Below the pieces are notes generated by a model. The model saw only the letters and a list, made by a program, of their open reading frames with translations, ran no database searches and had not been told where the DNA came from. From Sneathiella sp. P13V-1 (lineage in GTDB: Bacteria; Pseudomonadota; Alphaproteobacteria; Sneathiellales; Sneathiellaceae), in NCBI RefSeq assembly GCF_015143595.1, contig NZ_WYEU01000001.1, positions 1,116,001 to 1,180,000 on the forward strand: 64,000 nucleotides of DNA, read 5' to 3'. The stretch's first letter is position 1. Each line of letters opens with the position of its first letter. Below, one piece after another: positions 3,130 to 21,473 of the stretch. The position numbers and the translations under genes were made by a program.

Positions 3130-4626
3130 ATGCTCATAGGTGATCTGCTTTTGGCCCACGGTCTGGTGAAACCAGAGGATATTGAACTAGCATTTCATCG
3201 CCAGAAGGAAAGTGGCGGCCGTCTTGGTGATAATCTGGTGGCTTTGGGCGTTCTGTCACAGGATCAAGTTGACAAAGTGATCTATGAAGCACCACAAGCC
3301 CCAAAAACAGTGGCGGATACAGGTATTCCCGCTTCCAATCTGTTGCGCTTGCTTTTTAAAGCCATTTACACAAACAGTCTGGAAACCGCTTCTGAATATG
3401 CCGGCTCCCTGAAACTGCCGGTACCAGTGATCAACCGTCTTATTCAGGAATCCGCTGACAGAAAATTTCTGGAAGCCTTAGGATCGGCTGATCAAAGCTC
3501 CTTCTCTGAAAACCGCTATGTGATGACGGAAGCGGGGCGTCGTTTCGCCCTGGAATCCTTGCAGCAGAACCAATATGTGGGCCCTGCTCCGGTATCGCTT
3601 GAACAGTATCAGGAACGTATTCAGCAACAGAAAATCACCAATGAACTGGTTGCTCAGGACAAGATTGATAAGAGTTTTGAAAATCTGGTGATCTCTGATG
3701 AATTTATTCGCCGTCTTGGACCGGGTATCAACGCCGGTAAAAGCATTCTGCTTTATGGCCCTCCGGGTAACGGTAAGACAACGGTTGCGGAGAAAGTGGC
3801 CGATATCTTCGCCAATATCATCTACATCCCTTATTGCTTTGAAGTAGACGGCCAGATCATCAAGGTTTTTGATCCTGCGATCCACAAAGCAGTTCTGCCA
3901 GAAGAGGTGAAGGTGCCAAAATCTGGCCTGCGCCGCGAGGAATTTGATGGCAGGTGGATCCCCTGTGAGCGGCCGGTTGTGATTACAGGTGGTGAATTGA
4001 CGCTGGAAATGCTGGATCTCAGTTTCAATTCCCATGCCAAATATTACGAGGCCCCTCTTCATGTGAAGGCGTCTAATGGTACCTTTATTATTGATGACTT
4101 CGGCCGCCAGTTGGTAAGCCCGGAAGAGCTTTTGAACCGTTGGATCATTCCACTTGAAAGCCGTGTGGACTTCCTGAAACTTCACACAGGTAAAAGCTTC
4201 CAGCTGCCTTTCGATGAGTTGGTGATTTTCTCCACTAACCTGTCGCCGGATGACCTGATGGATCCTGCCTTCCTTCGTCGTATCCCCTACAAATTGGAGA
4301 CAAATGGTCCGAACCGGGATGAGTATTTTGAGATTTTCAAAATTGTTGCAGCGTCTAAAGGTCTTGAGATGACAGAAGAGTTTCTGGATATTGTTCTGGA
4401 CGAGCTGCAGGTTAAAAACAGTTTTGATCTGGCGGCCTATCAGCCGAAATTTATTGTGGAACAAGTACTTGCAGCCTGTAAATTCCGCGGGGAACCTGCC
4501 CATTTCAGTGAAGAGCTGATCCGGGATGCCTTGAAGAACCTTTATACATCAAGTGCTGCAGGTGTCGGGGCGACGAAAGCCAAGGGTGTTGGATCTGGTT
4601 CCAATAAACTGGCAACTGCCGTATAG
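3130..4626 (+). CDS. AAA ATPase with N-terminal MshEN-like repeat
   Basis: A 498-residue cytoplasmic protein. Residues 2-25 and 31-54 form two 24-residue motifs separated by exactly five residues (second motif begins RLGDNLVALG), the arrangement of the MshEN domain that binds cyclic di-GMP in type II secretion and type IV pilus ATPases. The first motif lacks the leading arginine because the protein starts there. A helical linker (about 70-190) leads to an AAA ATPase module with Walker A GPPGNGKT (210-217) and Walker B FIIDDFG (319-325), then a sensor-1-like stretch (VIFSTNL) and an arginine-rich follow-on (AFLRRIPYKLE). The ATPase is not the PilB/GspE fold. The start has GGAG seven bases upstream. 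No pilus or secretion gene is adjacent. Function unknown. Confidence 0.8.
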   Translation: MLIGDLLLAHGLVKPEDIELAFHRQKESGGRLGDNLVALGVLSQDQVDKVIYEAPQAPKTVADTGIPASNLLRLLFKAIYTNSLETASEYAGSLKLPVPVINRLIQESADRKFLEALGSADQSSFSENRYVMTEAGRRFALESLQQNQYVGPAPVSLEQYQERIQQQKITNELVAQDKIDKSFENLVISDEFIRRLGPGINAGKSILLYGPPGNGKTTVAEKVADIFANIIYIPYCFEVDGQIIKVFDPAIHKAVLPEEVKVPKSGLRREEFDGRWIPCERPVVITGGELTLEMLDLSFNSHAKYYEAPLHVKASNGTFIIDDFGRQLVSPEELLNRWIIPLESRVDFLKLHTGKSFQLPFDELVIFSTNLSPDDLMDPAFLRRIPYKLETNGPNRDEYFEIFKIVAASKGLEMTEEFLDIVLDELQVKNSFDLAAYQPKFIVEQVLAACKFRGEPAHFSEELIRDALKNLYTSSAAGVGATKAKGVGSGSNKLATAV

Positions 4627-8510: not shown

Positions 8511-9548
8511 ATGAAAAACCGGGCCGGAAAATTACTGATTTCGATATGCCTTCTGTTGGGGCTCTCTGCCTGCGCCGTGGGACCTTCCAAACAGGTCAAA
8601 AGCGATATTAGATCCTTCGCCCATAATATGCGGGTGGTGACCGACGCTTTTGCAGAGCAGATGAAAGCAACGGAAGCTGCGCATCAGGCGGCGCTCAAAG
8701 AGAATACGTTTCTGCAGTTTGATCTTGGCGGTAATCCCCCCGTTAATGAAGCCAGTCTGTTTTCCTTTCAGGAATATGCGGTTCGTAACAGCCTTATTGA
8801 AACTCTTCAGGCCTATGCCCACAATCTTGAAGAAGTGTTTCTTGATGCTGAAGGGGATACGGTTTCTCTTGTAAGTGCCGAACTTAAAGAATTTGACGCG
8901 GAACTTCTGGAATTGTCTCATGGCCTTGGAGCGCAGCAGAAAACCGCTCTAATAGGCTCTCTTGAGGGGCTTTCAAAAATTGCTTTTGCATCTTTTGCGA
9001 ACACGGAAGTTGGCAATATCGTTCAAAAAAATCACCCACTTGTGGAACGGGCTGCACTTCTTCTTTATCTGGATCTGGGAAGCCCAGAACATACAGATGA
9101 GAATTGTCCAACAGAGGACGCCTTTCAGTCTGTGAAGTTATCCAAAAATCAAATCCCCCTGTGCCGCGGTGGTCTTAGAAGCATTCACAGCCGCGCAAAT
9201 GCTGAACAGCTGAAAACACTACGTCAACGGCTTCAACTCTTACCGAAAATAAAACACTCCGATGAAGACCGGGAAGAGGTCATTGACCGTTTGTATAAGG
9301 CCCGAAAAGCGGGGAAAACACTTGATAAGTCCATGGCACAAACACAACAGGCGTTGATCAGGTTGATCACAGCTCACAGACATCTGAGAGCGCAATATGC
9401 CACCACTACCGAGACTATAGGGGAGGATATTCTGCCCAATTGGTTTGGAGCTGAAGATAAAAATGGATCGGTGTTCAAGAAACTCACGGAACTTACCAAT
9501 TTTCTTCCTGATCTAGTGAAGGAAGGTCGAAAACTGATGGAAAATTAG
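8511..9548 (+). CDS. Lipoprotein of unknown function, helical
   Basis: A 345-residue predicted lipoprotein. The signal peptide has a basic start (MKNRAGK), a hydrophobic core and the lipobox LSAC (18-21); the residue after the lipidated Cys21 is Ala, which by the usual rule favours the outer membrane. The mature part is mostly helical, rich in E, L, A and K, with two cysteines (CPTED and LCRGG) that could form a disulphide. I recognise no family. A GGAG precedes the start. The next gene begins ten bases after its stop, so the two are probably co-transcribed and may work together. Confidence 0.7.
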   Translation: MKNRAGKLLISICLLLGLSACAVGPSKQVKSDIRSFAHNMRVVTDAFAEQMKATEAAHQAALKENTFLQFDLGGNPPVNEASLFSFQEYAVRNSLIETLQAYAHNLEEVFLDAEGDTVSLVSAELKEFDAELLELSHGLGAQQKTALIGSLEGLSKIAFASFANTEVGNIVQKNHPLVERAALLLYLDLGSPEHTDENCPTEDAFQSVKLSKNQIPLCRGGLRSIHSRANAEQLKTLRQRLQLLPKIKHSDEDREEVIDRLYKARKAGKTLDKSMAQTQQALIRLITAHRHLRAQYATTTETIGEDILPNWFGAEDKNGSVFKKLTELTNFLPDLVKEGRKLMEN

Positions 9549-9882: not shown

Positions 9883-10710
9883 TTATTTCTTTTTCTGCTG
9901 ATCCGGATCCATCATTGGATCAATTTTACGGCGGGTCAGGCTGTAGTCGGCTTCTGCTGGAATGTTGAGGAATTTCCCTTCCTCGGTAATTTCCATTTCC
10001 GGCAGGACCGTCACCGTTGGGGTGGCAGCAGATTTCTCAACGGCTTCTGCCGCACTGTTAAAGCGCTGCAGATATTCAATATTCATCATGGTTGGGAAGA
10101 TGATGGTGTATTTGCCATCTTTTTCCCCATCCATAGCTTCGTTGGGCCCAATCCAGACGGAATCCACTGACTCTTCCCCATCATGGATCGCCAATTGCTC
10201 ATCCGGAGCGATGGCAATGAAGAAATGGGTGTCAAAGCGTTTGGGCATAAAGGTTGGGGTAATCCAGTGGGAATAGTGGGCCAGTTGATCGGTAGCCAGC
10301 TCCAACTCCTCCGCTTTGGCCATAGCGAGAATATCAATGTCGCCTGCCTGCATCTCTTTGCGATACTGATCCACCAGCTTTTCAATACGTGCCGGAGCGA
10401 CCATTACGCCTGTGGCCTTATCACGGGCCAGCAGCACATGACATTCTTCAAAGGCCTCACGGATGGACGCAATTTTAAAGGAAAGAAGAGGATCTGATAA
10501 ATCGGTGCCGGCTGGAAGATACGCGCTGAGTTCAGGGTTGAGATCCCCGGAATCCACTTTACCTCCTGGAAAAACCAGGGCGCCAGAAGCGAAGTCAATC
10601 TGGTGGTGCCGGACGACCATGAAAACTTCCAATTTATCACCGGGTTTGTCACAGTCACGAACCATGAGAACGGTCGCCGCAGGTTTAAGCGGGGCGGTTT
10701 TATCAGTCAT
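9883..10710 (-). CDS. Nudix hydrolase, NUDT19/RP2-like
   Basis: A 275-residue Nudix protein. The catalytic box is split: GALVFPGGKVD (43-53) is separated from IREAFEEC (83-90) by an insert of about 30 residues that includes the sequence between D56 and F78. The family of mammalian NUDT19/RP2, which cleaves CoA and acyl-CoA diphosphates, shows the same split and the same LVFPGG and REAFEE pieces, so a CoA diphosphatase role is a reasonable but unproved guess. The metal-binding glutamates of REAFEE are intact. It is convergent with the preceding helical gene, with no bases between their stops. Confidence 0.8.
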   Translation of the reverse strand: MTDKTAPLKPAATVLMVRDCDKPGDKLEVFMVVRHHQIDFASGALVFPGGKVDSGDLNPELSAYLPAGTDLSDPLLSFKIASIREAFEECHVLLARDKATGVMVAPARIEKLVDQYRKEMQAGDIDILAMAKAEELELATDQLAHYSHWITPTFMPKRFDTHFFIAIAPDEQLAIHDGEESVDSVWIGPNEAMDGEKDGKYTIIFPTMMNIEYLQRFNSAAEAVEKSAATPTVTVLPEMEITEEGKFLNIPAEADYSLTRRKIDPMMDPDQQKKK

Positions 10711-14345: not shown

Positions 14346-15137
14346 ATGACATATCAAGATGTAAAACCGGGTGAAGTCCTGCTTGAAGTGGAAGATATCA
14401 GCCTGTCCTTTGGCGCTGTGCGTGCCATCTCGGATGTGAGCTTCGACATTAAGAAAGGTGAGATCCGCGCGATCATCGGCCCGAACGGGGCTGGTAAAAC
14501 CTCTATGTTGAACTGCATCAACGGCTTTTATCACCCTCAGCAGGGAACAATTACCTATAAAGGTCAGAAACGTAGCGCTATGAAGCCTCACGAAGCGGCG
14601 GAGCAGGGCATCGCCCGTACCTTCCAGAACGTGGCGCTCTTTAAGGGTATGTCCACTTTGGACAACATCATGACTGGCCGTAACCTGAAGATGAAATCAG
14701 GTCTTCTCTCCTCCATGTTCTGGTATGGTGGCGCGTTGAAAGAAGAGCTGGAACATCGCCGTTTTGTGGAAGACATCATCGACTTCCTTGAAATTCAGGC
14801 AATCCGTAAGACACCAGTTGGTCGTCTTCCCTATGGTTTGCAAAAGCGTGTGGAACTTGGTCGTGCGCTGGCAGCTGAACCTGAACTTCTTCTGCTGGAC
14901 GAGCCTATGGCGGGTATGAACCTCGAAGAAAAAGAGGACATGTGCCGCTTTATCCTCGATGTGAATGATGAATTTGGTACGACAATTTGCCTGATTGAGC
15001 ATGACATGGGCGTGGTTATGGATATTTCCGACCGCGTTATGGTGCTCGACTATGGTGGGAAGATCGGTGACGGTGTTCCTGAAGAGGTTCGTGCAAATCA
15101 GAAAGTTATCGACGCCTATCTTGGCGGCGGTCATTAA
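14346..15137 (+). CDS. ABC importer ATPase, LivG-like
   Basis: A 263-residue ABC ATPase of the branched-chain-amino-acid type. Walker A is GPNGAGKT (45-52), the signature region reads LPYGLQKRVELGRAL (a variant of LSGGQ), and Walker B is LLLLDEPMAG. The C-terminal extension after the H-loop (LIEHDMGVVMDISDRVMVLDYG) is typical of LivG. It begins 21 bases after the ligase gene and precedes the two permeases, so it is one of the two ATPases of the importer at the inner membrane. The transported compound is not necessarily an amino acid. Confidence 0.93.
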   Translation: MTYQDVKPGEVLLEVEDISLSFGAVRAISDVSFDIKKGEIRAIIGPNGAGKTSMLNCINGFYHPQQGTITYKGQKRSAMKPHEAAEQGIARTFQNVALFKGMSTLDNIMTGRNLKMKSGLLSSMFWYGGALKEELEHRRFVEDIIDFLEIQAIRKTPVGRLPYGLQKRVELGRALAAEPELLLLDEPMAGMNLEEKEDMCRFILDVNDEFGTTICLIEHDMGVVMDISDRVMVLDYGGKIGDGVPEEVRANQKVIDAYLGGGH

Positions 15138-15158: not shown

Positions 15159-16064
15159 ATGGAAGACATGATGATAGAAGTATTGTTCTTCTTGGAAGTC
15201 CTGTTCAGCGGATTGTTGACAGGTACTCTTTATTCACTGGTGGCCCTCGGCTTCGTGCTGATCTTTAAGGCATCCGGTGTGTTTAACTTTGCCCAGGGCG
15301 CCATGATGCTGTTCGCAGCGCTTGCACTTGTGGGTATTCAGGAAATGCTTGGTGTTCACTGGACAGTTGCCTTTGTTATCACGGTTGTGATCATGATCGG
15401 TGTGGCCTGGTGTATTGAAAAGTTTGTTCTTGGCAAGCTTGTGAACCAGGAAGGCATCATCCTGTTTATGGCAACCATTGGTGTGACCTTCTTCCTTGAT
15501 GGTTTTGGTCAGACACTCTTTGGTAGTGACATTAAGACGCTGGATATCGGCCTGCCACAAGGTTCCCTTGATTTTGGCGGCATCTACATTGATAGCCTGG
15601 AGCTGGTTGCCGGTGGTACCGCTGCGGCTTTGGTTATCGGCCTTGCGGTTTTCTTCAACAAAACAAAAATCGGTCGTGCGCTTCGTGCGGTGGCGGATGA
15701 TCACCAGGCGGCGATGTCTGTTGGTATTTCCCTTCGCACCATCTGGATTATCGTATGGTCTGTTGCCGGTATCGTGGGTCTGGTTGCGGGTATCATGTGG
15801 GGTACCAAACTTGGCGTTCAGTTCAGTCTGACACTTCTGGCGCTGAAAGCACTTCCAGTGCTGATGCTGGGCGGATTTACGTCCATTCCAGGTGCGATTA
15901 TCGGTGGTCTGATCATCGGTGCAGGTGAAAAACTTGCTGAAATTTACATCGGTCCATTTGTTGGCGGTGCGATTGAAAACTGGTTCGCATACATGCTGGC
16001 AATGATGTTCCTGCTGGTTCGTCCGCAGGGTCTGTTCGGTGAAAAGATTATTGAGAGGGTTTAA
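15159..16064 (+). CDS. ABC importer permease, LivH-like
   Basis: A 301-residue inner-membrane permease of the LivH branch with about eight hydrophobic helices. Family landmarks include the N-terminal GLLTGTLYSLVALGFVLIFK, NFAQGAMM and the GRALRAVADDHQAAMSVGI loop that contacts the ATPase. A strong AGGAG precedes the start. It lies five bases before the LivM-like gene and forms the heterodimeric channel with it. Confidence 0.94.
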   Translation: MEDMMIEVLFFLEVLFSGLLTGTLYSLVALGFVLIFKASGVFNFAQGAMMLFAALALVGIQEMLGVHWTVAFVITVVIMIGVAWCIEKFVLGKLVNQEGIILFMATIGVTFFLDGFGQTLFGSDIKTLDIGLPQGSLDFGGIYIDSLELVAGGTAAALVIGLAVFFNKTKIGRALRAVADDHQAAMSVGISLRTIWIIVWSVAGIVGLVAGIMWGTKLGVQFSLTLLALKALPVLMLGGFTSIPGAIIGGLIIGAGEKLAEIYIGPFVGGAIENWFAYMLAMMFLLVRPQGLFGEKIIERV

Positions 16065-16069
16065 GTCGA

Positions 16070-17155
16070 ATGTTTTATCGTGAAGCCGGACAATTTAAGT
16101 CCTCTTATAAAGAAGATCAGGCGATTTTTCCGATCCTGCAAGATCGGATCGGTATCGCAGTGCTGTTGGTTGCAGCCTATCTGGTTGTTCCATTCGTCAT
16201 GAGTGAATACCTGATCGGTGCGATTATGACACCGTTCCTGATCCTGGCTCTTGCAGCAATTGGCCTGAACATTCTGACAGGTTATGCCGGTCAGATATCA
16301 CTGGGTACTGGTGGCTTTATGGCGGTGGGTGCATTCTCTGCTTATAAATTTGCCACTTGGTCCATTGCCCTTGGTGGTGCGGAAGGCACTATCCCACTGG
16401 TTTTGACGATCCTGCTTGCGGGTGTTGTAACGGCGATCGTGGGTATCATGTTCGGTATCCCAAGTCTGCGTATTAAGGGTTTCTATCTTGCGGTGGCGAC
16501 ACTGGCGGCTCAGTTCTTCATTGAATGGATGCTGGTGAAGGTTGGCTGGTTTACAAACTACAGCCCATCCGGTGTTATTACAGCGCCACCACTTGAAATC
16601 CTTGGCTACCTGTTCGACACGCCAGCAGAAAAGTATATCTTTACGCTGACTTTCGTTGCGATCATGGCCTGGGCAGCAAAGAACCTGGTTCGTAGCCACA
16701 TCGGTCGTGGCTGGATGGCAATTCGTGACATGGACATCGCAGCTGAAATTATTGGCTTCCGTCCCCTACAGACTAAACTATCTGCTTTTGCGGTTAGCTC
16801 TTTCTTCTGTGGTGTTGCGGGTGCGCTCTGGGCGTTCGTCCATCTGGGAACAGTGGAGCCGGAAGCGTTCGGTATTAACCGTTCCTTTGCGATCCTGTTC
16901 ATGGTGATCATTGGCGGTATGGGAAGTATCCTTGGATCCTTCATCGGCGCGGCCTTTATCACACTATTGCCAATTTTCTTGAATAACGTACCACCACTGA
17001 TCGGTTGGAACATCGGCGTGGATATGGTGGCTCATCTTGAATTTATGATCTTCGGTGTGTTGATCATCTTCTTCTTGATTGTTGAACCACATGGTCTTGC
17101 AAGATTGTGGACTATCGGTAAGGAAAAACTGAGATCCTGGCCGTTTCCATATTGA
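16070..17155 (+). CDS. ABC importer permease, LivM-like
   Basis: A 361-residue permease of the LivM branch, with the conserved AAIGLNILTGYAGQISLGTG segment and the coupling loop GRGWMAIRDMDIAAEIIG. Its N-terminal extension of about 35 hydrophilic residues before the first helix is cytoplasmic. It partners the LivH-like protein. The next gene is separated by 114 bases that hold a perfect hairpin, so the binding protein may be expressed at a different level. Confidence 0.94.
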   Translation: MFYREAGQFKSSYKEDQAIFPILQDRIGIAVLLVAAYLVVPFVMSEYLIGAIMTPFLILALAAIGLNILTGYAGQISLGTGGFMAVGAFSAYKFATWSIALGGAEGTIPLVLTILLAGVVTAIVGIMFGIPSLRIKGFYLAVATLAAQFFIEWMLVKVGWFTNYSPSGVITAPPLEILGYLFDTPAEKYIFTLTFVAIMAWAAKNLVRSHIGRGWMAIRDMDIAAEIIGFRPLQTKLSAFAVSSFFCGVAGALWAFVHLGTVEPEAFGINRSFAILFMVIIGGMGSILGSFIGAAFITLLPIFLNNVPPLIGWNIGVDMVAHLEFMIFGVLIIFFLIVEPHGLARLWTIGKEKLRSWPFPY

Positions 17156-17269: not shown

Positions 17270-18586
17270 ATGAGTTTGAAGAAATTTGTACTCGGTGTTG
17301 TGGGAGCTGCAGTACTGGCTGCTCCATTTACAACAGCGGCACCTGCACTGGCTGAAGACACACTCTATCTGCCAAAATTGGTTTACCGTACTGGTCCATT
17401 TGCGCCAGGTGGTATTCCAACAGCCAACGGTGCGGTTGACTACTGGGCGATGATCAACGAGCGTGACGGCGGCGTCGGTGGCGCGAAAGTTATCGTTGAA
17501 GAATGTGAATTTGGCTACAACACAGACCGTGGTGTTGAGTGCTATGAGCGTACGAAAAACAAAAACAATGGCGCGCTGATCTATCAGCCATACTCCACTG
17601 GTGTGACTTACGCTCTTGCTGACCGTACACGTACTGACAAAATTCCTCTGATGACTATGGGTTATGGTCGTGCGGACGCTGGTATCGGTACAGCCTTCCC
17701 ATGGGTTTTCCCACTGATGACCAACTACTGGGGTCAGGGTACAGGCATCATGAAATATATCGCTGAACAAGAAGGCGGTATAGACAAAGTTAAAGATAAA
17801 ACAATTGCATTGGTTTATCTCGACATCGCGTATGGTAAGGAATCCATTCCTATTTTCCGTACAATGTCTGAAAAATTCGGCTTTAACCTGAAAGAATACC
17901 CAGTAACTTTCCCAGGCATTGAGCAGAAAGCAACTTGGCTGCAGATCCGTCGTGCGAAACCAGACTACATTGTCATGTGGGGCTGGGGCGCGATGAACCA
18001 GACAGCTATTAAAGAAGCTAAGAACATCCGCTTCAATATGGAAAACTTCATTGGTAACTGGTGGGCCGGTGCTGAGCAGGATACTGTTCCAGCTGGTGCA
18101 TCCGCTGTTGGATATAAGAGTGCTACATTCTCCAACGCTGGTAAAGATTACCCAGTTATCCAGGACATCATGAAGCACGTTTACGCCAAAGGTAACGGTA
18201 AAGGCGAAGACAATGTTGGTCAGGTTCTTTACAACCGTGCTGTGATCACACAGGTGTTCATCCACGCTGGTATCCTGAATGCGCAAGCTAAATTCGGTGT
18301 GAAAGCCATTAACGGTGAACAGCTCCGCTGGGGTCTGGAAAACCTGAAAATGGATGCAGCCATGAACGAAAAAATGGGTATTGCTGGCATGGGTCCAGAA
18401 ATTTCCCCAACATGTGCTGACCACGTCGGTGGTGGTGGTTTCTTCATCCAACAGTGGGATGGCAAGAAATTCAACGTTGTGTCTGAAGCTCTGACACCAA
18501 TGAATGACCTTGTTATTCCTGCAATGGAAGCATCCGCTGCAAAATACCTGAAAGAAAAAGGCCTCGACGCCGTTTCTTGTAACTAA
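17270..18586 (+). CDS. Periplasmic substrate-binding protein, LivK-like
   Basis: A 438-residue binding protein of the type I periplasmic fold used by branched-chain-amino-acid-type importers. A signal peptide of about 28 residues ends at PALA-ED. The mature start (LYLPKLVYRTGPFAPGG) is longer and different from that of true Leu/Ile/Val-binding proteins (about 345 residues), and many tryptophans and tyrosines line the middle, suggesting a larger or aromatic/acyl ligand. A very strong GGGAGG precedes the ATG, as expected for an abundant periplasmic protein. Confidence 0.9.
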   Translation: MSLKKFVLGVVGAAVLAAPFTTAAPALAEDTLYLPKLVYRTGPFAPGGIPTANGAVDYWAMINERDGGVGGAKVIVEECEFGYNTDRGVECYERTKNKNNGALIYQPYSTGVTYALADRTRTDKIPLMTMGYGRADAGIGTAFPWVFPLMTNYWGQGTGIMKYIAEQEGGIDKVKDKTIALVYLDIAYGKESIPIFRTMSEKFGFNLKEYPVTFPGIEQKATWLQIRRAKPDYIVMWGWGAMNQTAIKEAKNIRFNMENFIGNWWAGAEQDTVPAGASAVGYKSATFSNAGKDYPVIQDIMKHVYAKGNGKGEDNVGQVLYNRAVITQVFIHAGILNAQAKFGVKAINGEQLRWGLENLKMDAAMNEKMGIAGMGPEISPTCADHVGGGGFFIQQWDGKKFNVVSEALTPMNDLVIPAMEASAAKYLKEKGLDAVSCN

Positions 18587-18625
18587 ACTGTAAATAGTAA
18601 CCTTGAAAAAGAGCGAGTCTTGTCA

Positions 18626-19441
18626 ATGAACGCGTCAAGTAATCCCCTTCTGAGGGTCAATAATATCGAGGTCATTTATGACCATGTTATCTTGGTACTT
18701 AAAGGGGTCTCGCTCGAGGTTCCTGAGGGAAAGATTGTATCTATCCTCGGGGCTAACGGCGCAGGCAAGACCACCTCTTTGAAAGCCATTTCTAACCTCC
18801 TCCGCTCTGAGCGCGGGGAGGTTACGAAAGGCTCCATTGAGTATCGCGGTAATAACATCACTGAAAGCTCTCCCGCCGAACTGGTTATGGATGGTGTTGT
18901 TCAGGTGATGGAAGGCCGTCACTGTTTTGAACACTTGACAGTGGAAGAAAATCTTCTGACTGGCGCTTACACCCGTAAAGGTGGCCGCGCGATGATCAAT
19001 GAAGAACTTGAGAAGGTGTATCACTACTTCCCGCGCTTGAAAGAGCGTCGCACATCTCTCGCCGGTTATGTTTCCGGTGGTGAGCAGCAGATGGTTGCTG
19101 TGGGCCGTGCGCTGATGGCGAAGCCGAGCCTCATTCTGCTGGATGAGCCTTCGATGGGTCTGGCGCCGCAGCTTGTGGAAGAGATTTTTGAAATTGTGAA
19201 ACGTTTGAACGTAGAAACCGGGGTGAGCTTCCTGGTTGCCGAGCAGAACGCTACGATCGCGCTGAAATATGCCCACTATGGCTATATTCTTGAAAATGGT
19301 CGTGTTGTGATGGACGGCGCTGCGGAAGACCTTTCAAACAACGAAGACGTTAAAGAGTTCTATCTGGGTCTGGGCGGCGACGGCCGCAAGAGCTTTAAAG
19401 ATGTGAAGCACTATCGTCGTCGTAAGCGTTGGCTCGCCTAA
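18626..19441 (+). CDS. ABC importer ATPase, LivF-like
   Basis: The second ATPase of the importer. Walker A is GANGAGKTT, the signature is YVSGGEQQMVAVGRAL and Walker B is LILLDEPSMGLAP. The frame opens with TTG six bases earlier, but the ATG at 18626 sits eight bases after GAGCGAG and is the better start. A basic C-terminal tail (HYRRRKRWLA) goes beyond the usual LivF end. It follows the binding-protein gene by 39 bases. Confidence 0.92.
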   Translation: MNASSNPLLRVNNIEVIYDHVILVLKGVSLEVPEGKIVSILGANGAGKTTSLKAISNLLRSERGEVTKGSIEYRGNNITESSPAELVMDGVVQVMEGRHCFEHLTVEENLLTGAYTRKGGRAMINEELEKVYHYFPRLKERRTSLAGYVSGGEQQMVAVGRALMAKPSLILLDEPSMGLAPQLVEEIFEIVKRLNVETGVSFLVAEQNATIALKYAHYGYILENGRVVMDGAAEDLSNNEDVKEFYLGLGGDGRKSFKDVKHYRRRKRWLA

Positions 19442-19483: not shown

Positions 19484-20731
19484 ATGAGCGACTCGCAGAA
19501 ATTTTATGATGATCTGGAAACTCGCACGCCTGAACAGCGTGCGAAAGATCAGATCGCAGCCTTGCAGGAACAGATTGCCTATGCGAAAGCAAACTCCGAT
19601 TATTTCGGTGAGCTTTTGAAGGATGTGGACCCTGCTTCAATTGACAGCATGGAAGCTTTGGCGTCCCTGCCTGTCACACGTAAATCCGATCTGATTGGTC
19701 ATCAGGGTAAAAACCCACCGCTTGGTGGACTAAACGCTCAGCCGGTTGGTGAAGTCGCTAACGTGTTTATGTCTCCAGGCCCGATTTTCGAGCCTGGCCA
19801 AGACATCAAAGATTATTTTCGTATGGGCCGTGCCATGTGGGCCGCGGGCTTCCGTCCGGGCGACCTGGTTTACAACACTTTTTCCTATCACATGACCCCA
19901 GCGGGCCACATGATGGAAAGCGGCGCACGCGCTGTTGGTTGTCCGGTTTTCCCAGCGGGTATCGGCAACACTGAAATGCAGCTTCAAGCCATTTCCACAT
20001 TAAAGCCACGGGCTTATGTCGGAACGCCTTCTTTCCTTAAAATCCTTCTGGAAAAAGGAACGGAAGCTGGCATGGATATGTCATCCATCAAAGTTGCCAG
20101 TGTTGGTGGTGAGGCATTGCCTCCGTCACTTCGTCAGGCACTGAAGGACATGGGTGTCGAGACAGTTATCCAATCATATGGTACTGCGGACCTTGGTCTG
20201 ATTGCTTACGAGACCGAAGCGATGGAAGGTATGAGCATCGATGAAGGTGTGATTGTTGAAATCGTTCGTCCAGGTACAGGCGATCCGGTTGCACCGGGTG
20301 AGGTTGGCGAAGTTGTTGTTACTTCCTTCAACAAAACCTATCCATTGGTCCGCTTTGGTACAGGTGACATGTCTGCCTTCCTGGAAGGTGGCAGCGCTTG
20401 TGGTCGCACTGGACCACGCATTAAAGGCTGGATGGGTCGTGCAGACCAAACTGCCAAGGTGAAAGGCATGTTTGTTCACCCAGGTCAGGTTGTCGACGTT
20501 CAGAAAGCCCACGAAGAGATCAAAAAAATACGCCTTGTTGTCACAAGCGACAACAACATGGACGTCATGACAGTTCAGTGTGAAGTTGCCGGTGGCGATG
20601 ACGCATTGAAAGACGAGGTTGGTAAATCTGTTCAAGCCAAATGTAAACTTCGCGGCAACGTTGAGTTTGTTGAGGTCGGAAGCCTTGCCAATGATGGTAA
20701 AGTGATCGACGATCAGCGCACATATGAATAG
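19484..20731 (+). CDS. Phenylacetate-CoA-ligase (PaaK) family protein without the SSGTTG loop
   Basis: A 415-residue protein of the PaaK branch of AMP-forming ligases. Later motifs are present: VASVGGEALP, QSYGTADLG (adenine motif), VRFGTGDMSAF and RIKGWMGRADQTAKVKGMFV, which matches the hinge and C-terminal domain. At the place where PaaK has SSGTTGKP, this protein reads FMSPGPIFEPGQD, so the phosphate-binding loop that handles ATP is missing. It may be a divergent ligase or one that has lost adenylation. It closes the transporter operon, 42 bases after the ATPase gene, and is followed by a terminator. Confidence 0.82.
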   Translation: MSDSQKFYDDLETRTPEQRAKDQIAALQEQIAYAKANSDYFGELLKDVDPASIDSMEALASLPVTRKSDLIGHQGKNPPLGGLNAQPVGEVANVFMSPGPIFEPGQDIKDYFRMGRAMWAAGFRPGDLVYNTFSYHMTPAGHMMESGARAVGCPVFPAGIGNTEMQLQAISTLKPRAYVGTPSFLKILLEKGTEAGMDMSSIKVASVGGEALPPSLRQALKDMGVETVIQSYGTADLGLIAYETEAMEGMSIDEGVIVEIVRPGTGDPVAPGEVGEVVVTSFNKTYPLVRFGTGDMSAFLEGGSACGRTGPRIKGWMGRADQTAKVKGMFVHPGQVVDVQKAHEEIKKIRLVVTSDNNMDVMTVQCEVAGGDDALKDEVGKSVQAKCKLRGNVEFVEVGSLANDGKVIDDQRTYE

Positions 20732-20797
20732 AGCCTACAATAATTGAAGGACAAATAAGGGAATTCTGAATTTCCTTTGATCCTGATAGTTGCGAAG

Positions 20798-20832
20798 AAA
20801 AGAACATTCCTGTAGCAAGGGATGTTCTTTTT
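20798..20832 (+). terminator. Rho-independent terminator ending the transporter operon
   Basis: A 13-bp stem with one G-T pair (20798-20810 with 20819-20831) and an eight-base loop, with T-rich 3' arm and tail. It separates the transporter-ligase unit from the ccm genes and overlaps an upstream TTG that opens the ccmA frame, which argues against that start. Confidence 0.85.
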
Positions 20833-20852
20833 TTATGGGAAGCTGCCACTTG

Positions 20853-21473
20853 ATGACCTTAACAGCCTCGGACCTGTCCTCAATTCGGCAGGAAAGACAG
20901 ATTTTTGCGGGTGTTGATCTTTCCTTGCAGGAAGGAGAGCTTCTCTGGGTTAAGGGGCGCAATGGTGCTGGTAAATCATCACTCCTTCGTATTATGGCGC
21001 GGCTTTTGAGCAGCCCGACGGGTAAGGTGCTGTGGCAAGGCGACGACGTGGCAGAAGATCCCGAACCTTACCTTTCAAATCTCCAATATATCGGGCATCA
21101 GGATGGCTTGAAGACAGCCTTTTCCCCGAAAGAAAATTTGCAGTTCTGGGTGGATTTTCACGGACGCGGCGATGTTTCTAAAGCTCTTGAAGCCTTTGAG
21201 CTTGCTCCCATCGCGGACAGTCCGGTTCGTATCCTGTCCGCAGGCCAGAAAAAGCGAACACATTTGGCGCGCCTCGTCGCGTGTCCTGCACCGCTTTGGA
21301 TTTTGGACGAACCTGTCAGTTCGCTTGATGTGCATTTCATAGACTTGTTTAGACATGTCCTGAAGACCCACTTGAATAATGGGGGGATGGCCCTCCTCGC
21401 TACTCATCAGGATCTTCAGATGGATGGCACACGTATTCTTGATCTGGATAGGATTGGGGGTGAAGCGTCATGA
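20853..21473 (+). CDS. ccmA: Cytochrome c maturation ATPase CcmA
   Basis: ATPase of the CcmABCD complex, which releases haem-loaded CcmE at the inner membrane. Walker A reads GRNGAGKSS, the signature LSAGQKKRTHLARL and Walker B LWILDEPVSSLD. The frame is open from a TTG at 20790, but that falls inside the terminator hairpin; the ATG at 20853 gives the usual CcmA N-terminus (MTLTASDLSS) with a GGGAAG ten bases upstream. This gives 206 residues, the family norm. It overlaps ccmB by four bases (ATGA). Confidence 0.93.
   Translation: MTLTASDLSSIRQERQIFAGVDLSLQEGELLWVKGRNGAGKSSLLRIMARLLSSPTGKVLWQGDDVAEDPEPYLSNLQYIGHQDGLKTAFSPKENLQFWVDFHGRGDVSKALEAFELAPIADSPVRILSAGQKKRTHLARLVACPAPLWILDEPVSSLDVHFIDLFRHVLKTHLNNGGMALLATHQDLQMDGTRILDLDRIGGEAS

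Follow-up and report, generated by a model that had tools for sequence, protein, structure and literature searches.

A PaaK-fold protein with an SPGP loop at the phosphate-loop position accompanies the acyl-CoA synthetase of a Liv-type importer operon in Pseudomonadota

Introduction

The described proteins that most resemble the one studied here, which we call Q, are PaaK1 and PaaK2 from Burkholderia cenocepacia (2y27, 2y4n and 2y4o) and 2-hydroxyisobutyryl-CoA ligase (HCL; 6hdw and 6he0). In PaaK1, the ATP phosphates are held by amides of the A3 loop and by Ser94, Thr96 and Thr97, according to excerpts of a review (PMC8388817). We infer from the sequence that this numbering fits an SSGTTG loop with Ser93 as its first residue. 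In the same excerpts, the C-terminal Lys is described as the key catalytic residue of adenylation, and Thr161, Gly163 and Pro168 are listed as the most mutation-sensitive loop residues of 4-chlorobenzoate:CoA ligase (Table 2 of PMC8388817). Further background comes from excerpts of reports on PaaK1 (PMC4432964), on a PaaK-like beta-valine ligase (PMC4619459) and on the 2-HIBA pathway (PMC13188929), and from excerpts of PMC9007349. HCL has a PaaK-like fold, keeps the loop GTSGTTGRP and is an ATP-dependent ligase.

A second point of comparison is AuaE, a member of the acyl-adenylating superfamily. In the aurachin pathway AuaEII makes the thioester, and AuaE, an anthraniloyl-CoA:ACP acyltransferase, moves anthraniloyl from CoA, and also from AMP, to a carrier protein, as stated in excerpts of PMC10295502. 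The third are the branched-chain amino acid (Liv) importers, which have the same five importer genes as the operon described below, to which the latter adds an acyl-CoA synthetase (ACS) and Q. Searches of openly licensed papers, a body of literature with subscription journals mostly outside it, listed no paper that describes the Q operon, its clade or a ligase with such a loop.

Results

The window, a stretch of 64,000 nucleotides from Sneathiella sp. P13V-1 (NZ_WYEU01000001.1, positions 1,116,001 to 1,180,000), holds seven genes in the order ACS-LivG-LivH-LivM-SBP-LivF-Q, where SBP is the substrate-binding protein and Q comes last (Table 1). The gaps between them measure 5-114 bases and have no room for a carrier-protein gene, and none was found in the operon. 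Folding of positions 20790-20842 gave -22.5 kcal/mol (z -5.7) and revealed the stem-loop behind Q, which a simple promoter/terminator scan did not report.

Table 1. Coordinates of the operon features in the window.
Feature	Position	Strand	Basis
ACS: AMP-binding acyl-CoA synthetase, 651 aa, intact TSGTTGRPK loop	12369..14324	+	Pfam AMP-binding, 245.5 bits
LivG-type ABC ATPase	14346..15137	+	Pfam ABC_tran, BCA_ABC_TP_C
LivH-type permease	15159..16064	+	Pfam BPD_transp_2
LivM-type permease	16070..17155	+	Pfam BPD_transp_2
SBP: periplasmic substrate-binding protein	17270..18586	+	Pfam Peripla_BP_6; nearest solved structure 4ru0, E 7.2e-104
LivF-type ABC ATPase	18620..19441	+	Pfam ABC_tran; NCBIfam LivF 214.6 bits (below cut-off 441)
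Q: PaaK-fold SPGP-loop AMP-binding-family protein, 415 aa	19484..20731	+	ORF with ATG start, Pfam, structure model
SPGPIFEP loop codons (residues 97-104), A3 phosphate-loop position	19772..19795	+	sequence and alignments
Stem-loop and T-run just 3' of Q, likely operon terminator	20800..20834	+	folding and sequence

Two Pfam models pass their gathering cut-offs on Q, namely AMP-binding on residues 143-280 (56.3 bits, cut-off 29.9) and AMP-binding_C_2 on residues 328-403 (26.9 bits, cut-off 25). No model passed in the NCBIfam scan, and the PaaK equivalog TIGR02155 reached 135.8 bits, below its cut-off of 646.3. Databases label Q-type proteins "AMP-binding protein" or "phenylacetate--CoA ligase family protein". 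Q shares with PaaK1 and PaaK2 the two-domain fold over residues 6-413, about 25-28% identity and the A5, A7 and A8 positions. Its structure was modelled from 47 sequences (mean pLDDT 88.2, pTM 0.79), and the model has the PaaK fold, with Z 34.9 and rmsd 11.0 over 375 residues to PaaK1 (2y4n) and Z 34.7 and rmsd 10.5 over 404 residues to HCL (6he0). We attribute the high rmsd to 2y4n to a rotation of the two domains relative to each other; the N-terminal part alone matches 6six with rmsd 2.3 over 297 residues.

The sequence-only reading had pointed to SPGPIFEP in this PaaK-family protein where others have SSGTTGKP, and alignment to the solved PaaKs bears this out: residues 97-104 stand opposite SSGTTGKP, and the canonical A3 phosphate loop (T/S)SG(T/S)TG is absent from Q. 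Unlike PaaK1 and PaaK2, Q also misses about six residues directly after the loop. The loop itself is a different, ordered hairpin and not a deletion, with strands at 93-96 and 102-105 in the model. Among 140 distinct Q-family sequences (at least 41% identity), drawn from 170 tblastn rows of which 10 below 41% identity were kept separate and the others were duplicates or did not cover the loop, SPG is found in all 140 and SPGP in 136. This rules out a sequencing error at the loop, which had been named as a possible refutation. Position seven of the loop, K or R in many PaaKs, is D or E in 140/140, and the general acidic form of the clade may be written SPGP[IL]x[DE]P. A 99-row alignment of Q gives the same picture (S97, P98 and G99 in 99/99, P100 in 98/99), whereas all 26 ordinary PaaK rows carry SGTTG or a near form (SGTTS, SGSTG or TGTTG). 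By alignment, the counterparts of PaaK1 Ser94, Thr96 and Thr97, as these are named in PMC8388817, are Pro98, Pro100 and Ile101. Q keeps S97, G99 and P104, the counterparts of Thr161, Gly163 and Pro168 of 4-chlorobenzoate:CoA ligase in the same source, and because of these retained residues we are cautious about a loss of ATP use.

In the tree, Q, four Q2 paralogs and one further sequence, L027, lie on one side of a branch that separates them from the 26 ordinary PaaKs with support 100/99; the branch persists after removal of the loop columns (SH-aLRT 99). The SPGP change thus appears old and selected, because the loop is fixed family-wide and occurs in a single clade. L027 (G059:C36:115353-116237) is a PaaK-like sequence with the loop HRGLTLAE and without a matching A8/A10 region, which groups adjacent to the Q clade on a long branch.

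The later motifs of the fold, reported already from the sequence, are indeed there: an A5-like YGTADLG, A7 as RFGTGD, A8 as GRADQTAKVKG and DGK near the C-terminus. The A5 acid (D or E) is present in 99/99 rows, as are A7 D295 and A8 R319 and D321, the residues of ribose contact and of the hinge. The DGK Lys is found in 93 of the 99 rows and in 128/140 of the larger set, being replaced in 12/140; in this A10 region the stretch is shorter than that of PaaK, which makes the alignment of the Lys uncertain. Across a 47-row alignment reaching down to about 57% identity, 80 positions are invariant, many of them polar and in active-site motifs. Within the genus, dN is 0.07-0.17 and dS is saturated, with no YN00 value. 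When similar residues are treated as one, 16 positions are common to 19/19 Q and 4/4 Q2 rows but shared by no more than a quarter of the 25 ordinary rows compared, among them P98, P100, D/E103, N131, H136, P139, D/E145, E243, K325 and F330. Of these, P98, P100, D/E103, N131, H136, P139, E243, K325 and F330 set Q apart from PaaK1 and PaaK2.

Q occurs in 67 of 398 Pseudomonadota genomes (E<=1e-100), and ACS in the same 67; these are raw genome counts with common descent left in. A 68th genome listed for Q, G193, has a distant paralog only and was left out; it contains Q2 and an ACS of Q2's own group. Three genomes, G125, G193 and G229, also pass the ACS cut-off (E<=1e-100) with 37-38% over about 600 residues and E 1e-122 to 1e-126, matches that we take as a different ACS group. 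The boundary of the ACS group was chosen after the scores had been seen, at the gap below 1e-139; G421 has a second copy at 4.9e-133, and the ACS match of G290 is split into two halves. SBP was found in 63 of the 398 genomes (E<=1e-60), 10 of which are without Q, and the same 10 are without ACS. Thus, Q tracks the ligase ACS and not the importer, because all 67 Q genomes have ACS and 10 SBP genomes lack both. The same 10 genomes led us to reject the idea that Q is coupled only to the importer. Their loci contain Liv operons that lack both ACS and Q; one locus, L205, shows a 25% ACS-like match. These operons (L202-L211), with an SBP 38-44% identical to that of the window, form natural controls.

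A set of 60 relatives was also covered. Among its same-genus genomes that are at least 98% complete, nine, including the window genome, have both Q and ACS, and five have no Q (G003, G008, G017, G019 and G021) and no ACS match above a distant 32-34% group. Q without ACS was seen among the 60 relatives in G006, G010, G013 and G049, all at most 86% complete, and ACS without Q in G015, where the contig apparently ends before LivF and Q.

The operon is complete, with all six other genes, at 77 of 84 testable Q loci, where 7.6 kb or more of upstream DNA is available (23 further loci are too short). It is partial at three (L039, L044 and L112) and absent at four (L040, L051, L163 and L167). The genomes of L163 and L167 (G071 and G386), and also G352, have the complete ACS-LivGHM-SBP-LivF operon elsewhere, and these three are included in the Q-ACS pairing. 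Of 79 operon copies of ACS, 78 have the loop core SGTT, and the remaining match is partial.

Around Q, the neighbourhoods vary. Leucine-type catabolism genes are part of the clusters in Azospirillum (L111) and Peteryoungia (L117), and in Roseovarius (L114) and Xanthobacter Py2 (L115) the operon adjoins subunits of a B12-dependent acyl-CoA mutase and MeaB; in L115, Q stands before ACS and after a gene labelled PaaD. In Methylibium PM1, Q lies near a Rieske oxygenase on a plasmid (L112) which we take to be the MTBE plasmid. In L041 and L051, Q and the benzoyl-CoA epoxidation genes boxC and boxB are divergent neighbours, and the Liv operon is absent within the flanking DNA covered. UbiD decarboxylase and kynureninase genes lie next to Q in L040 and L042, where the C-terminal Lys is replaced by Val, and L040 has in addition a TRAP binding protein. 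No ACS was found near Q within the flanking DNA covered of L040, L042, L041 and L051. Because the clusters differ, they do not point to a single substrate for Q systems; our guess is that the imported substrates are small branched or aromatic carboxylic acids. The constant element among the Q clusters is ACS.

A Q2 paralog has the same SPGPIFEP loop as Q. Q2 goes together with its own, paralogous ACS-Liv operon, which directly adjoins it in L196, is nearby in L195 and shares an island with it in the window genome (L119 and L197). The Q2 proteins have lost D321 and G405 of Q and read AE, TE or similar where Q has GK, and they keep SPGP, H136 and E243. In the window genome, Q2, with the loop SPGPIFEP, is at L119:13556-14776 (-) and the operon at L197:9400-14900 (G000:C1, about 554-575 kb), on an island that also holds acyl-CoA dehydrogenases, carboxylase subunits and an ordinary PaaK.

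Discussion

Since the canonical phosphate loop was not found, we place Q in the PaaK branch of the ANL superfamily as a variant and do not class it as a PaaK ligase. HCL resembles Q in fold and in that relatives of Q cluster with B12-dependent acyl-CoA mutases, but it keeps GTSGTTGRP where Q has SPGPIFEP. The "ligase" labels on Q-type proteins imply a reaction that the loop argues against.

With less than even confidence, we propose that Q serves the ACS of the same system as a dedicated partner and is not an independent ATP-dependent ligase. It is read as the partner of ACS because ACS is the constant element across the clusters. As their family membership suggests, the Liv-type importer would bring in a carboxylic acid and ACS would activate it with ATP. 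Q would no longer grip the ATP phosphates, to judge from the side chains replaced in the alignment. With A7 and A8 it retains the elements that contact the AMP ribose and support the thiolation conformation. Most likely, Q would take the acyl group from ACS as acyl-CoA or acyl-AMP and, by analogy with AuaE beside AuaEII, carry out only the ATP-free second half-reaction, to CoA or another acceptor. The clade-specific N131, H136, D/E103, D/E145, E243 and K325 may form the altered site. Like AuaE, with which it is compared by the description in PMC10295502, Q has a separate intact ligase alongside, as judged by genomic association; the acceptor of AuaE, in contrast, is a carrier protein, and the Q operon encodes none.

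The fixed loop, the single clade, the invariance of A7 and A8, the replacement of the DGK Lys in 12/140, the 67/67 co-occurrence, the 10 SBP genomes without Q and ACS, the pattern within the genus, the Q2 operon and the AuaE precedent support Q as a partner of ACS. The retained S97, G99 and P104, the A5 acid and the DGK Lys speak against it, as do the missing carrier gene and the loci without ACS nearby (L040/L042 and L041/L051). The sequence-only reading had expected altered chemistry from the missing loop, for example thioester transfer, ligand sensing or help to the first ligase. Of its suggestions thioester transfer and help to the ligase fit best, with ACS in all 67 Q genomes and Q absent from related importers that lack ACS, and the results speak neither for nor against ligand sensing; the loss of ATP binding and the reaction itself are read from sequence and stay proposals.

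More broadly, we speculate that Q represents a widespread ANL clade that traded the phosphate loop for the acidic SPGP[IL]x[DE]P and became an ATP-independent acyl-thioester or acyl-adenylate enzyme, obligately paired with ACS in ABC-importer acid uptake as a catabolic two-ligase-fold relay. Should Q prove to be an ACS partner that works without ATP, labour would be divided within the ANL fold in a new way, and the relay would serve catabolism rather than antibiotic synthesis. The seven genes would then form an uptake-and-activation unit, both marker genes of which are present in 67 of the 398 Pseudomonadota genomes sampled, and the imported acids would become testable, including those handled where the cluster adjoins B12-mutase genes or genes for leucine-type or benzoyl-CoA degradation.

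Two other explanations fit less well. We consider it less likely that Q has no catalytic role and acts as a regulator or scaffold. It would then bind acyl-CoA or AMP and work as a switch on ACS or the importer, or it would join ACS in a mixed complex. Strict co-occurrence with ACS and lost adenylation features would suit such a pseudoenzyme, as would Q2, which lost more of A8/A10 yet keeps SPGP, H136 and E243. The 80 invariant positions, many of them polar and in active-site motifs, seem to be beyond the needs of a scaffold, and the PaaK fold is retained.

It is still less probable that Q is a working ATP-dependent acyl-CoA ligase whose phosphate loop has diverged and whose substrate is a second compound taken up by the importer. 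All PaaK1 side chains named as ATP-phosphate ligands in the excerpts of PMC8388817 are gone, the loop has two prolines, and the position that is often Lys or Arg is acidic in every relative. If Q were simply a second ligase, one would not expect it to follow ACS in every genome. Such a ligase would explain why the A5 acid, A7, A8, S97, G99, P104 and, in 128/140, the C-terminal Lys are kept, together with a PaaK fold at Z of about 34-35 to 2y4n and 6he0 and the vicinity of CoA pathways such as boxB/boxC and leucine-type catabolism. Some A3 mutants, moreover, show a loss of only 4- to 14-fold according to the same excerpts (PMC8388817). Motif loss in a single gene could mean a decaying paralog or a sequencing artefact, an explanation that is next to negligible given the loop in 140/140 sequences, the dN of 0.07-0.17 with saturated dS and the operon at 77/84 loci.

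Elsewhere in the window, the long frames at 3130-4626 (+), 8511-9548 (+) and 9883-10710 (-) have no Pfam match at E<=1e-5. The gene following Q (20790-21473) encodes an ABC ATPase, probably CcmA. Its listed TTG start precedes the terminator stem, and the true start is probably located downstream.
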